A DNA stretch of 56,520 nt from Thermoplasmata archaeon (lineage in GTDB: Archaea > Thermoplasmatota > Thermoplasmata > Thermoplasmatales > Thermoplasmataceae). The DNA is taken from NCBI GenBank assembly GCA_015520045.1, contig WAQW01000057.1, positions 1 to 56,520 of the forward strand. The letters are read 5' to 3'. Positions 36,716 to 42,329 of this stretch are shown one piece after another (positions within the stretch are counted from its first letter, which is position 1; each line of letters begins with the position of its first letter). The notes under the pieces were generated by a model. The model worked only from the letters and a program-made list of their open reading frames with translations. It searched no databases and was not told where the DNA came from. The translations under genes were made by a program, and so were the position numbers.

Positions 36716-38281
36716 GTGATACTGAATATGCCTGAATTTATGTTTAGGAGGAGATCTAAGCCTAGAAAGCCAATGGTAAAGAGCAAGGATGAGGTGGACC
36801 TCGACCTGATAGATAGATATGATATTATAGGCTCACTTGGCTCCGTCGAGATATACTGGAACAGAAAAACATTCGAAACCATATATTCTGTGACGGAACC
36901 CGTTCTCAACGAGTATGAAAAGATGCTACTTAAAACGCTACCTGAAGAAATGCGTATGGTGATTCCGAATAAGGAAGGATATCTGACAGATTATTCTGGG
37001 GTCAGCATTGACAAGATCGTTGATGATTACGTTAAAGCTTATGCCATCGAGATGTCTGATGAATCAAAGGAGAAGGTAAAATATTACCTTAAGAGAGATT
37101 TTGAGGGGATGGGAAAGATTGAGGTCATCATAAGGGATCCCTACGTTGAGGATGTTTCGTGTGACGGTTTTAACATACCCCTGTTCGTTTATCACAGAAA
37201 GCATGGTTCCATAAAAACGAACATTGTTTTTTCTACACTCGATGAACTGAACTCATATGTTATGAGGTTGGCCCAGATCTGTAAGAAAGATGTTTCACTT
37301 GCAAATCCTATACTTGATGGTTCCACGCCGTCTGGGCACAGGATACAGGCAATTTATGGCAATGAGGTGTCAACCAGGGGTCCAACCTTCACTTTCAGGC
37401 TTTTCCGTGAGAGGCCTTTCACACCCATTGAACTGATAAAATTCGGAACTGCAAGCTCTGAGATTGTAACCTATTTGTGGTATATGGTCGAGTTTCTCAA
37501 TTCTGCCCTCATTGCTGGCGTTCCTGGTGTGGGAAAAACGTCGACTCTCAATGCCATTCTCATGCTAGTTCCTCCCAGCACCAAAATTTTCAGCATAGAG
37601 GAAACCAGGGAGATCAACATTCTCCATCAGAACTGGGTGGCAACCTCAACGCGAGAAGGCGACTTCGATGCTGGCGAGGATTCTGGCTCCGGCTTAAAGA
37701 TAGACATGTTCGAGCTGGTGAAGATGGCTATGCGTCAGAGACCTACATATATTGTGGTGGGTGAAGTCCGTGGCAGGGAAGCTTCATCACTGTTTCAGGC
37801 TATGGCTACCGGACACACCACATATTCTACCATGCACGCCGATTCCATGGAAGCTACGGTAAATAGACTTGAAAGTCCCCCTCTGAACATTCCCAGAATA
37901 ATGATAACGTATCTTAACACAGTGATATTTAATAAATTCATAAGAAGCGGTGATAGCGTTGTCCGCCGTATAACGGAAATTGATGAAATGTCCTCATATG
38001 ATAGCGCAACGAATGAGGTTGTTTACAATCGGGTCTATACGTATGATGCTTACCGCGGTAAGCATAATTTTACGGGCTTCAGCAATCTTTTTAAGAAAGT
38101 GCAGACCATTAAAGGATTGACAAGTTCCCAATTTAAAAAGGAATTTGAATTCAGGAAGAGAATACTTGAAGAACTTGTTAGATCCGATATAACAGATTAC
38201 ATCCAGATAACAAGAGTAATCAATACTTACTACAGAGACCAGGATAAGGCACTCTTGATGGCATCGGGTGAACCAGTATGA
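36716..38281 (+). CDS. type IV pilus/archaellum-type secretion ATPase, first copy
   Basis: This 521-residue member of the GspE/VirB11/TadA family powers pilus or secretion assembly. The Walker A motif is GVPGVGKTST (about residues 268-277), and the Walker B/His box region is IVVGEVRGREASS followed by TTYSTMHADS. The N-terminal half has the family phrase DPYVEDVSCDGFNIPLFVYHR. The start is GTG 36716 (ATG 36728 is the alternative). The stop overlaps the next start by 4 bases (ATGA). Motifs are intact, so it is probably active. Confidence 0.9.
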   Translation: MILNMPEFMFRRRSKPRKPMVKSKDEVDLDLIDRYDIIGSLGSVEIYWNRKTFETIYSVTEPVLNEYEKMLLKTLPEEMRMVIPNKEGYLTDYSGVSIDKIVDDYVKAYAIEMSDESKEKVKYYLKRDFEGMGKIEVIIRDPYVEDVSCDGFNIPLFVYHRKHGSIKTNIVFSTLDELNSYVMRLAQICKKDVSLANPILDGSTPSGHRIQAIYGNEVSTRGPTFTFRLFRERPFTPIELIKFGTASSEIVTYLWYMVEFLNSALIAGVPGVGKTSTLNAILMLVPPSTKIFSIEETREINILHQNWVATSTREGDFDAGEDSGSGLKIDMFELVKMAMRQRPTYIVVGEVRGREASSLFQAMATGHTTYSTMHADSMEATVNRLESPPLNIPRIMITYLNTVIFNKFIRSGDSVVRRITEIDEMSSYDSATNEVVYNRVYTYDAYRGKHNFTGFSNLFKKVQTIKGLTSSQFKKEFEFRKRILEELVRSDITDYIQITRVINTYYRDQDKALLMASGEPV

Positions 38282-39900
38282 GTGAAGATAGGGAAAAGAG
38301 GAGATATTCAAAGAGGAAGCCAAAAATTGATACACCTAAAGATTCCTCTACGCCCACCAAGGATCTGAACGAGGAGGCTTCTCCCGTTCTACAGAGCTCG
38401 GTGGGCGCGAAAGAAGATACTGCAGAGAAGGTGCCCCTTCAGGCAGAGGAGGAATCAGAAGAAGAGGTGAAAGCAACACCTTCGGATGATGGTAGCACCG
38501 ATAACCAGAATGAGGGTAAAGAAGAAGTAAAGAATTCCGTTGAGAAAGAGGAAAGTGAGAATGAACCTCCCAAACATACGGAGAGGAAATCCGTTCCGAT
38601 TCTTGTTGACACCTCCCTTGAGACAGAACATCCAAAGGAAGCTTCCAGTGGTAAAAAAATTCTCTCGTTCTTTTCTTCCAGAGATAAAAAGCGGAAGAAA
38701 ATAAAACCAAATGAGATCCCAGAGGAAAAACTGCTCATACCCAAGGATAGGGGAAAGGTCGAATCACTCCCAAAAAAAGGTTCTGTTTCCCTTTTCGAAA
38801 AGGCAGAGGTTTCTGAAAAAACTGAAGAGCTCTCTTCGGGAAATTTTCCAGATGAGACCCGGATAAGCAGGTTTTCTCTGGGAAAATTCGTCTCATCGTT
38901 CAGGGATAAACGTTCGGTAAATATCCGTCAGATGCAGATAGAGAAAATGGAACGAATGTTGTTCCGCGGAGCGCATGCGAACTGGGGTGCAGCGGATCTC
39001 CTGGAACAATCTGCAGCCAGGGAAGAAATCAGGCTACCCTCCATACCCTTTAGCCTTAGAATCGGACTTTTCTTCTTCAGGAAATTCTACACAAAGAGAG
39101 GAAAGAATGAGAAACTCGAGGAATCTCTGAAGAAAGCCAAGATGCCCTACTCAGCGGTTCAGTATTACTCAATGATCACCATGATATCCGTACTTGCAAT
39201 TTTCGGCGGAATTCTGGGGATTTCTCTTGTTTCAATGATTTTTGGTATGTTCATCTGGCCAGCCTATCTCATTCTCATTGTTCTGGTGTTTCTTGGGGCG
39301 GTTCTGGCTCTTGGCCAGCCACGGTCGGTTGCAAAAAAGAGAAGGAAGGATATCGACTCTAAATTGCCTATGGCTCTTGCCTACATTGCTACCATGGCTT
39401 CTGCCGACATACCTGTTGAAACGATAATGTACGAACTGGGAAGGAGCAAGGAGTATGGAGAAATTTCGAAGGAAGCTATGTCCGTTTCTGCATCGTCGAG
39501 ACTCTTTGGGAAAGATATAATTACCGCTCTCCGGGAGGAGTCGAAGTACTCTCCTTCTCTGAAATTTTCCGAGTTTCTTCAGGGCATAGTCTCAACTGTA
39601 ACATCGGGTGGAAATCTGAAGGAATATTTCACATCCAAAGCCAGGCAGTTCCAGTCTGAGTTAACAACGCTCATTAAGGCGAATGCAGAATCCGTCGGCG
39701 TTCTCGCTGAAAGTTATGTGACCGTTGGAGTTGCATTCCCCCTTATGCTCCTCGTGATTCTGGGTGTTATGGCCTCGCTTTCACCGAACAGCGGTAGCCT
39801 CACGCTTGTTCTGTACCTTATCGTACTGATGATCATTCCTATCATCACCTTTGCGTTCACGTTTCTCGTCTCGAGCACGGTGAAGGAGGTCCAGATATGA
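38278..39900 (+). CDS. GspF/TadC-like membrane protein with a long charged N-terminal extension
   Basis: The C-terminal 300 residues form a type II secretion F domain. It has paired TMs (MISVLAIFGGILGISLVSM and WPAYLILIVLVFLGAVLAL), a cytoplasmic helical domain with DIDSKLPMALAYIATMASA, and two TMs near the end (VAFPLMLLVILGVMASL, LYLIVLMIIPIITFAFTF). The first 190 or so residues are almost only charged and polar residues and should be disordered. Four-base overlaps at both ends couple translation. As an inner-membrane platform it should dock the ATPases. Confidence 0.85.
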   Translation: MSEDREKRRYSKRKPKIDTPKDSSTPTKDLNEEASPVLQSSVGAKEDTAEKVPLQAEEESEEEVKATPSDDGSTDNQNEGKEEVKNSVEKEESENEPPKHTERKSVPILVDTSLETEHPKEASSGKKILSFFSSRDKKRKKIKPNEIPEEKLLIPKDRGKVESLPKKGSVSLFEKAEVSEKTEELSSGNFPDETRISRFSLGKFVSSFRDKRSVNIRQMQIEKMERMLFRGAHANWGAADLLEQSAAREEIRLPSIPFSLRIGLFFFRKFYTKRGKNEKLEESLKKAKMPYSAVQYYSMITMISVLAIFGGILGISLVSMIFGMFIWPAYLILIVLVFLGAVLALGQPRSVAKKRRKDIDSKLPMALAYIATMASADIPVETIMYELGRSKEYGEISKEAMSVSASSRLFGKDIITALREESKYSPSLKFSEFLQGIVSTVTSGGNLKEYFTSKARQFQSELTTLIKANAESVGVLAESYVTVGVAFPLMLLVILGVMASLSPNSGSLTLVLYLIVLMIIPIITFAFTFLVSSTVKEVQI

Positions 39901-40733
39901 TCCAGCGTAAATTTCTCGCCCTGCTCATGTCCTATCTTGCCGCGGTTATATTCGTTGCCTTCTACGTTCTTCTGTACATCAGATCAAACGGCTCGATCCA
40001 TATAGATATAATTCTACTTGCGTCGGTGGTGGCGATGATTCTCACGATACCGTACGGCATAATGGACTTTCTTGACATGAGAATATATTATGAAGCAGAG
40101 AGGCGTGTTGCCGATTTTCTCAGAGATATTGCAGAGTACACGACCTTCGGCATGCCCATCTCAGAGGCCATAGTCAGGACGGCGGATATCGATTATGGAC
40201 CCCTCTCAAAGGAAGTGAAGCGCGTTGCAACCCTCATCTCCTGGGGAATCCCCGTTGAAATTGCACTCTCAAGATTTGGTACTGAGATTAATTCTCCCAA
40301 CATAATACGTGCGGGAAAGCTGATCCTGAAAGCAGCAGAATCTGGCAGCAACATTTCTGATGTTATGAATCTTGTGTCTGATTTCACGACCCAGATGCAG
40401 TTAATGAGAAATTCCCGGTTTACCGAGATGAAGAGCTATACGATGGTTATGATGATCTCGTTTGGGGTATTTCTCTTTGTTGTGCTTGTTATCGATGCCC
40501 TCTTTCTACCGAAAATCAGTGCTCATGGTTTTGCCTCCTTTGGAATGTCTGTGACGAAGCAACAGATACAGAGCATAAAGAATGTCTTCAATATTGGTAT
40601 GGTTGTTCAGGGGGGTGGAACCGGTATCCTTTCTGGCGTTCTGAGGGATGGAAGAATAAGTTCGGGGGTTCTTCTGTCCGGTATTCTTATATTTATAAGC
40701 AGCATTGTTCTTATTATTACGGGGTCGATATAG
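39897..40733 (+). CDS. GspF/TadC-like membrane protein, second copy
   Basis: This 278-residue protein is a second platform component of the T2SSF type. TM pair 1 is LLMSYLAAVIFVAFYVLLY and IILLASVVAMILTIPYGIM. The cytoplasmic domain contains DFLRDIAEYTTFGMPISEAI and AGKLILKAAESGSNISDVM. The last TMs are MVMMISFGVFLFVVLVIDAL and the C-terminal GILIFISSIVLIITG. It overlaps the first copy by 4 bases and directly abuts the second ATPase (TAG then ATG). The two F-domain proteins probably form a heteromer as TadB and TadC do. Confidence 0.85.
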   Translation: MIQRKFLALLMSYLAAVIFVAFYVLLYIRSNGSIHIDIILLASVVAMILTIPYGIMDFLDMRIYYEAERRVADFLRDIAEYTTFGMPISEAIVRTADIDYGPLSKEVKRVATLISWGIPVEIALSRFGTEINSPNIIRAGKLILKAAESGSNISDVMNLVSDFTTQMQLMRNSRFTEMKSYTMVMMISFGVFLFVVLVIDALFLPKISAHGFASFGMSVTKQQIQSIKNVFNIGMVVQGGGTGILSGVLRDGRISSGVLLSGILIFISSIVLIITGSI

Positions 40734-42329
40734 ATGATTAGTTCAAAGAAAACAAGAAGAGTGACCGTACTCAAGAGGCAGGAGATTGAGTTGTCCGAGA
40801 AGGCAACCGACAATGATTATTCTTTTCAAGAACTTGAGCCGGGTCTGGTCTATTCAAGGATCTACATGAACGACATTACAGGTGAAGTTCAGTATTCGCT
40901 GATAGAACCCGTTGTCGATTCACAGGAAATGCAAGTGATCTCCATGCTCAAAGATTACATCATAGGCCTTGCCGCTTTCAATGAGAAACCGGCCCGTGAT
41001 CGAGAGAGGGAGTTTCACGAATATCTTGAAACCGCTATAAATGATCTTGCGATCGATGCTGACAAAAACTCGATGACCGTTATAGAATACTACGTCCACA
41101 GGGATATCGTGGGTTTCGGAAGGATCGATGGCCTCATGAAAGATCCGGAGATAGAGGATATTTCGTGCGATAGTTCAACGGTGCCGGTTTTCATCTATCA
41201 CCGCGATCATGGGTACATCCAGACAAATGTAAAGTTCTCCAACGATGTGGAGCTAAACATGTTCGTTAAGAAGGTGGTGCAGGATTCTGGTAAACACATT
41301 TCCATTTCCATTCCAATCATTGATGCCACACTGACAGATGGTTCTCGATTGCAAGCCTCCTACGGTGAATACATAACAAACAATGGCCCTGCCTTCACCA
41401 TCAGGAAATTCAGGGCCAATCCTCTCAACCCTGTTAACCTCGTCTCTATGAACTCCCTTTCTGCCAAAGGGTTTGCATATCTGTGGGTTCTCACTGAGTA
41501 TGGTTCCAACATGATGATAGGCGGAGGTACCGGTTCAGGAAAGACAACACTTCTCAATTCAATTCTTCTCTTCATACCTCCGCAGATGAAGATCGTGAGT
41601 ATAGAGGATACCAGAGAGATAAACATTCCACATGAGAACTGGATAGCCACTGTCACTCGTTCTGGTTTCGGAAAGCTGAACAAGGAAACCATGAAACGAG
41701 CTGGAGAGATTGATATGTTCGATCTTCTCGCAGCTTCCTTGAGACAGAGACCAAATTACCTCGTAATCGGGGAGGTGAGGGGTAAGGAAGCATTCACAGT
41801 GTTTCAGGCGATGTCCGCAGGAAGATACGGATTTGGCACTTTTCACGCCGAAGATCCAAAGACCTTGATCTACAGACTTGAGTCAGAACCGATCAATATT
41901 CCCAGGACACTAATCACATCCCTTGATGTCATAGTTATGCAGTCAGCCCTCATATACAAAGGAAAACTTGTGAGAAGAGCCACGTCAATCTCTGAGATAA
42001 CCGGGCTGGACCCCAATACAGACGAAATAATCATCAACACCGCCTTCAGATGGAATCAGCAGAACGATTCTTTCACATACTCCGGTTACAGTTACGCACT
42101 GAACCGGATAGCTGAGAGAACAGGGAAATCCGAGCGGGCTCTTGAGGAGGAAGTTAACCTCAGGGAGAAGATACTCCTGAAGATGATCGAGAAGAAGTTC
42201 ATCACTTACAAGGACGTTACACGGCTTATATCAATGTTCTACAAGAAAAGGGATTCTCTTCTGGATCTTCTTGGATTGAAAGAAAGTGGCGAGGAAGAAG
42301 AAAGCCCGGGACTCGAGTTCGATTTCTAG
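40734..42329 (+). CDS. type IV pilus/archaellum-type secretion ATPase, second copy
   Basis: This 531-residue paralogue of the ATPase three genes upstream has Walker A GGGTGSGKTTLL (about residue 262), Walker B region LVIGEVRGKEAF and a His box FGTFHAEDPKT. The N-terminal domain contains KDPEIEDISCDSSTVPVF, the same landmark as in the first copy. Both ATPases keep all catalytic motifs, so neither is a simple degenerate copy. Its 3' end overlaps the convergent antiporter gene by 4 bases. This is the last gene of the four-gene operon. Confidence 0.9.
   Translation: MISSKKTRRVTVLKRQEIELSEKATDNDYSFQELEPGLVYSRIYMNDITGEVQYSLIEPVVDSQEMQVISMLKDYIIGLAAFNEKPARDREREFHEYLETAINDLAIDADKNSMTVIEYYVHRDIVGFGRIDGLMKDPEIEDISCDSSTVPVFIYHRDHGYIQTNVKFSNDVELNMFVKKVVQDSGKHISISIPIIDATLTDGSRLQASYGEYITNNGPAFTIRKFRANPLNPVNLVSMNSLSAKGFAYLWVLTEYGSNMMIGGGTGSGKTTLLNSILLFIPPQMKIVSIEDTREINIPHENWIATVTRSGFGKLNKETMKRAGEIDMFDLLAASLRQRPNYLVIGEVRGKEAFTVFQAMSAGRYGFGTFHAEDPKTLIYRLESEPINIPRTLITSLDVIVMQSALIYKGKLVRRATSISEITGLDPNTDEIIINTAFRWNQQNDSFTYSGYSYALNRIAERTGKSERALEEEVNLREKILLKMIEKKFITYKDVTRLISMFYKKRDSLLDLLGLKESGEEEESPGLEFDF

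Follow-up and report, generated by a model that had tools for sequence, protein, structure and literature searches.

A putative type IV pilus motor operon with two paralogous ATPases is conserved across the Thermoplasmata

The Operon and Its Surroundings

The window, i.e., the whole stretch of DNA analyzed, comprises 56,520 nucleotides from a Thermoplasmata archaeon of the order Thermoplasmatales. At positions 36716-42329 it carries four complete open reading frames on one strand (+) in the order ATPase E1, Fa, Fb, and ATPase E2; we use the names given to the operon of Cuniculiplasma divulgatum, CdiPE1, CdiPFa, CdiPFb, and CdiPE2 (ISME J 2025, PMC12448462). E1 (CdiPE1-type; 36716..38281, +) encodes a motor ATPase of the T2SSE/ArlI-AapE family, with 521 amino acids when read from the GTG at 36716; translation may instead begin at an in-frame ATG at 36728. 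E2 (CdiPE2-type; 40734..42329, +) encodes a second motor ATPase of 531 amino acids. Both were assigned from domain matches and from their positions in the E1 and E2 clades of the trees described below. Fa (CdiPFa-type; 38278..39900, +; 540 amino acids) and Fb (CdiPFb-type; 39897..40733, +; 278 amino acids) were found by domain matches to correspond to the N-terminal and the C-terminal half, respectively, of an ArlJ/AapF/TadC platform. Of the Pfam domains, T2SSE was present in both ATPases and T2SSF in both platform genes, with every match above the cut-off. In the sequence, E1 overlaps Fa at 38278 and Fa overlaps Fb at 39897, in each case by ATGA; the stop codon TAG of Fb is followed at once by the ATG of E2 (40733/40734). 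The initial annotation had described a type IV filament motor operon with this gene order and these junctions, and the open reading frames, the junction sequences and the Pfam domains are all in agreement with it.

On the opposite strand, the operon is flanked by a gene for an Lhr-type helicase and a gene for a protein of the Na+/H+ exchanger family, which were previously read as lhr and a CPA1 antiporter. The end of the exchanger gene is overlapped by E2 by 4 bases. In the window, the operon has no pilin, prepilin peptidase or secretin gene next to it, as had also been stated. The operon lacks a gene for AapX and has no additional gene beside it on its own strand, and no arl genes are adjacent. 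In the genome that the window belongs to (76% complete) we found no T2SSF gene besides Fa and Fb, and no full ATPase of the E1/E2 kind besides E1 and E2.

The ArlJ/FlaJ model has 555 positions, of which Fa covers 8-240 and Fb covers 270-548. Since the two proteins cover successive parts of the model, they are the two halves of one ArlJ/AapF-type platform that is split in two genes. The earlier description of a double platform is therefore replaced, and two separate platforms were rejected as an interpretation because Fa and Fb align to complementary halves of one protein model. The N-terminus of Fa carries an extension of approximately 250 residues rich in Lys, Glu, and Ser (window 38278-39027). 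Such an extension, of approximately 200-300 residues, was also observed in the genus of the window and in near relatives (L048, L043-L047, L049-L051, L062), while in two genomes of genus g4 (L052, L182) a long extension sits on E1 and not on Fa.

Conservation Across the Class

Loci were sampled across the order and the class. The exact order E1-Fa-Fb-E2 was found in 84 loci, 82 of them distinct after two duplicates had been dropped, and these are spread over 32 families. In these loci, no fewer than about 97% of the junctions are of 30 bp or less. A chance origin of the operon is excluded by the identical order in 82 distinct loci of 32 families, and whether relatives keep the four-gene order, a point raised by the initial annotation, can be answered in the affirmative. 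Counted separately, the E2 profile matched 267 and the E1 profile 266 of 300 genomes of the class; some of the draft genomes showed one strong ATPase match only. The layout is thus common to nearly the whole class and not a peculiarity of one species.

Some lineages deviate from this layout. Two families, f2 (L031, L033-L037, L065) and f6 (L038, L064), have retained E1 but unlinked from Fa-Fb-E2. Locus L069 (8332-13445) has the order E1-E2-Fa-Fb, and L074 has a single ATPase ahead of Fa-Fb. One genome with the usual set also carries a second, very diverged copy of the four genes (L030, G004:C66). Within the family of the window (f1), neither of two profile searches matched a pilus ATPase strongly in genera g2, g5, g11, and g14, near-complete genomes included, which suggests repeated loss of the pilus ATPases in these genera. 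Genus g16 has apparently kept an archaellum ATPase alone.

Origin of the Two ATPases

The ATPases E1 and E2 formed two separate clades, each with 99% SH-aLRT support, in a tree of 83 ATPases from which the longest branches and distant rows had been removed beforehand. L074 and L069 were placed near the base of this tree and the single ATPases of other archaea outside. In a larger first tree E2 of family f1 was grouped with DPANN ATPases. We read this as long-branch attraction, as the pruned tree puts the same E2 inside the E2 clade. The trees also have E1 and E2 of the window orthologous to the ATPase pair within the same GTDB family. E1 and E2 of the window are 33% identical to each other, and each is 71-78% identical to its orthologue from the same genus. 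The duplication of E1 and E2 is thus ancient, having occurred early in the class from one ancestral ATPase. The ATPases of L069 fall beside each other in the tree but retain the TGH/TGK difference, as if gene conversion had spared that site.

Active Sites of E1 and E2

We compared 87 E1 and 87 E2 sequences residue by residue. The Walker A Lys/Thr, the ASP-box Glu, the Walker B Glu, the conserved arginines and the second His of the HIS box were invariant in all of them. The window is no exception: Walker A, located at 37517..37540 (+) in E1 (GVPGVGKT) and at 41523..41546 (+) in E2 (GGTGSGKT), as well as the ASP box, Walker B and the arginine-finger residues are intact in both proteins. Judged from these residues, both E1 and E2 should bind and hydrolyze ATP. 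A role of E2 as a catalytically dead subunit was rejected, its catalytic residues being invariant in all 87 sequences. Two intact paralogous ATPases had been proposed from the window, and this holds both in the trees, with their distinct clades, and in the catalytic motifs. The scenario set against it, a recent duplication with one copy losing its catalytic residues, is rejected by the deep clades and the intact catalytic residues of both copies.

The two paralogues were found to differ at the first position of the HIS box. E1 of the window has both histidines (His367 and His374; 37814..37837, +), whereas E2 has Arg364 in place of the first and retains the second as His371 (41823..41846, +). 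Lys or Arg occupies this position in 75 of 87 E2 sequences, while His was found in 83 of 87 E1 sequences, in all 12 single archaeal ATPases and in all five ArlI sequences. A second difference lies in N-terminal domain 2, where the residue preceding an invariant Arg is paralogue-specific: His in 79 of 87 E1 sequences (His208-Arg209 in the window, 37337..37342, +) and Ser in 85 of 87 E2 sequences (Ser204-Arg205, 41343..41348, +), with Ser also in the outgroups. The diverged copy L030 keeps both signatures together with the gene order, and the reordered locus L069 keeps that of the HIS box. A few lineages (f5, f11, f32, and f35) deviate in that the first HIS-box position of their E2 is His or Gln; f5 is an exceptional family in which both paralogues have changed together, and it represents one lineage.

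In PilB the first His of the HIS box packs on a Thr that contacts the neighboring packing unit (PMC5424180). The paralogue-specific sites near the nucleotide pocket were found to be clustered, with p down to 8e-6 without controls, but this clustering is modest under conservation-matched controls (p about 0.005-0.3 depending on the threshold). We dropped the idea that a change in the P-loop of E1 meets the HIS-box change of E2 across one interface, because the PilB contact residue maps off the changed P-loop residue.

A Fused Double ATPase in Hydrothermarchaeota

A different form of ATPase pair was found in Hydrothermarchaeota. Locus L086:26-3592 (identical to L278) encodes one protein of 1188 amino acids that contains two T2SSE domains; a pair of TadC-like genes comes next. 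Both ATPase halves lie in one open reading frame, encoding approximately 940-1188 amino acids, in 20 of the 23 genomes searched in its phylum (set: L086/L278 and L286-L296; genomes G353 and G357-G376). The HIS box reads TGQ, i.e., with Gln, in the N-terminal half of all 12 proteins read and TGH, i.e., with His, in the C-terminal half of all nine read. In the tree the N- and C-terminal halves form two clades of their own away from E1 and E2. The doubling in Hydrothermarchaeota is accordingly independent of that of E1 and E2, and asymmetric at the same HIS-box residue. The fused protein resembles the window operon in its two ATPase domains, its two TadC-like genes and its HIS-box asymmetry, but differs in the independent duplication and in having both domains in one polypeptide. 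Such a covalent pair would most simply make a six-domain ring of three chains. We found no description of it in the literature searched. In the pilus ATPase of an unclassified archaeon (L095:9575-12862), the ASP box was found to be interrupted by an intein (Intein_splicing and LAGLIDADG domains).

Pilin-Like Genes and Prepilin Peptidase

In most families outside f1 the operon is adjoined by a gene for a class III-signal-peptide pilin-like protein of approximately 300 amino acids with a EGVASTVGTIMALLVFL-type N-terminus. The gene is located upstream of E1, or downstream of E2 in f5, and a match to Pfam DUF7289 was obtained for 13 of 22 members. The operon of family f1 lacks such a neighbor, whereas pilin-like homologues were found elsewhere in 45 of 77 f1 genomes, for example about 20 kb away from it in G105, 25 kb in G074, and 100 kb in G044. 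Since pilin-like genes adjoin the operon in most other families and lie elsewhere in f1, the absence of a pilin gene beside the operon in f1 is derived. The initial annotation had reasoned that pilins beside the operon in close relatives would speak against its reading; they are present beside it in other families but not in the close relatives within f1.

A search of the genome of the window for class III signal peptides had been proposed, and with an f1-specific profile it yielded a protein of 710 amino acids (C38:1508-3640) preceded by a fragment. As the genome carries pilin-like genes with class III signal peptides on a different contig (C38), the operon cannot be called self-contained, as it was initially. 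The approximately 65% of this assembly that was read yielded no small major pilin of the CdiPB-like kind. Peptidase_A24 was not detected in this 76% complete genome; across the order, 80 of 117 genomes showed weak matches to it. Genome G048 (C1:456001) contains an open frame of 13,409 codons, the start of which weakly resembles the N-terminus of the class III pilin-like proteins (E = 2.6e-4).

Relation to Known Systems

The arrangement is not new and is that of the CdiP pilus machine of Cuniculiplasma divulgatum; it can therefore not be regarded as undescribed (PMC5155288, PMC12448462). Golyshina et al. (2016) reported it for genes CSP5_0712-0715, with pilins elsewhere on the chromosome (PMC5155288), at a distance of approximately 500 kb from the motor operon (PMC12448462). 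The operon was subsequently assigned to a pilus solved by cryo-EM, and in the same study the two ATPases were called unique and the need for the second one enigmatic (ISME J 2025, PMC12448462). Like the window, C. divulgatum has two AapE-like ATPases around a platform split in two genes, with neither AapX nor pilins at the operon. The window comes from another species and its Fa bears the long charged N-terminal extension, and the arrangement that was considered unique is found here to be class-wide.

Two distinct ATPases in one locus were also reported for Aciduliprofundum boonei (Makarova et al., 2016; PMC4858521). In A. boonei a single pilA-like pilin gene is part of the locus, whereas the window operon is without one. 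The ATPase and the platform of the Sulfolobus Aap pilus (AapE, AapF) are homologous to those of the window. However, the Aap system has one ATPase, one unsplit platform, AapX and pilins in the operon, and the window differs in all of these. The archaellum motor proteins ArlI and ArlJ belong to the same superfamily as the window proteins, and FlaI is the best NCBIfam match of the two ATPases with 375 and 410 bits. These scores are below the equivalog cut-off of 550, the ATPases form a clade apart from the Thermoplasmata ArlI and there are no arl neighbors, and the operon was on these grounds rejected as an archaellum operon. Bacterial PilT and PilU are paralogous retraction ATPases that cooperate, but the window ATPases fall outside the PilT family (TIGR01420), scoring 38.8 and 37.6 bits where the cut-off is 319. 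The Tad system has a single bifunctional ATPase, CpaF, where the window has two ATPases.

Discussion

We consider that the operon encodes the cytoplasmic motor and the membrane platform of a Thermoplasmata type IV pilus of the CdiP type, and that E1 and E2 act as one joint motor; we give this reading a probability of roughly 55%. Fa and Fb would form one AapF/ArlJ-like platform. Pilins encoded elsewhere would be processed by a prepilin peptidase and leave the membrane via Fa/Fb into the filament. E1 and E2 would make up one obligate two-component motor acting on the Fa/Fb platform, as opposed to two freely exchangeable motors. The fixed active-site difference between E1 and E2 suggests such a partnership. 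The most likely form of it would be an alternating mixed ring in which the E1 and E2 sites differ in how they handle ATP, the motif asymmetry probably being what affects this. Extended to the fused pair of Hydrothermarchaeota, the proposal would be that archaeal double-ATPase pilus motors are mixed rings of obligate partners, bearing active sites of two kinds, and that such rings have arisen twice independently and were marked each time by loss of the first HIS-box His in one partner only. We put this broader proposal forward tentatively, at clearly less than even odds. PilT and PilU are co-encoded paralogues and were found not to intermix (PMC6762196), so the co-conservation of E1 and E2 is no proof of a mixed ring, and it is because PilT and PilU cooperate without mixing that we rank the mixed ring below the joint motor. 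The fused pair favors a mixed ring, while two stacked or separate rings are also conceivable in principle. The modest clustering of the paralogue-specific sites under matched controls and the His or Gln in E2 of a few lineages also weigh against the joint motor. One complete operon in each genome is compatible with E1 and E2 being used at the same time or in turn.

The initial annotation had raised both a heteromeric ring and an assembly and retraction pair. In the latter case, E1 and E2 would each form a homohexamer and take turns on the split platform as separate motors, extension being driven by one and retraction by the other, in a PilB/PilT-like manner that evolved independently in archaea. 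Bacterial type IVa pili use separate motors, with a retraction motor duplicated from the assembly ATPase (PMC11178785). E1 and E2 are diverged, with fixed differences around the active site, and by their residues both are catalytically intact, as such a division of labor would have it. However, no twitching was seen for C. divulgatum, which owns both ATPases (PMC12448462). Neither window ATPase is PilT-like by its TIGR01420 score, archaeal Aap pili retract without a second ATPase, and alternating rings would be difficult to square with the fused pair of Hydrothermarchaeota. We find separate motors less probable than a joint motor, though plausible.

The two ATPases may instead both be assembly motors that are partly redundant or under different regulation, and retained for dosage or for particular conditions. 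This has some appeal as E1 and E2 share one operon and as Makarova et al. suggested that paralogous archaeal ATPase/TadC operons may be differentially regulated while sharing pilins. Co-retention in 32 families with fixed, reciprocal paralogue-specific residues would then be unexpected, and we regard redundancy as improbable. A pilin-independent protein secretion machine, which the title of the initial annotation implied, would agree with the lack of an adjoining pilin gene in f1, but it is largely excluded, and we assign it a very small probability: class III-signal-peptide pilin-like genes lie beside the same operon in most other families, the genome of the window has pilin-like genes on contig C38, and the C. 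divulgatum operon was assigned to the filament solved by cryo-EM (PMC12448462).

Beyond the published machine, our analysis adds the class-wide spread of the operon, the ancient paralogy of E1 and E2, the asymmetry of their active sites, the independent parallel in Hydrothermarchaeota and the relocation of the pilin in f1 as opposed to the adjacent pilin of most other families. The view of the arrangement as peculiar to one species is corrected. Together, the class-wide conservation, the active-site signature and the fused pair turn the puzzle of the second ATPase into a specific, testable claim on how two motors would share one platform.
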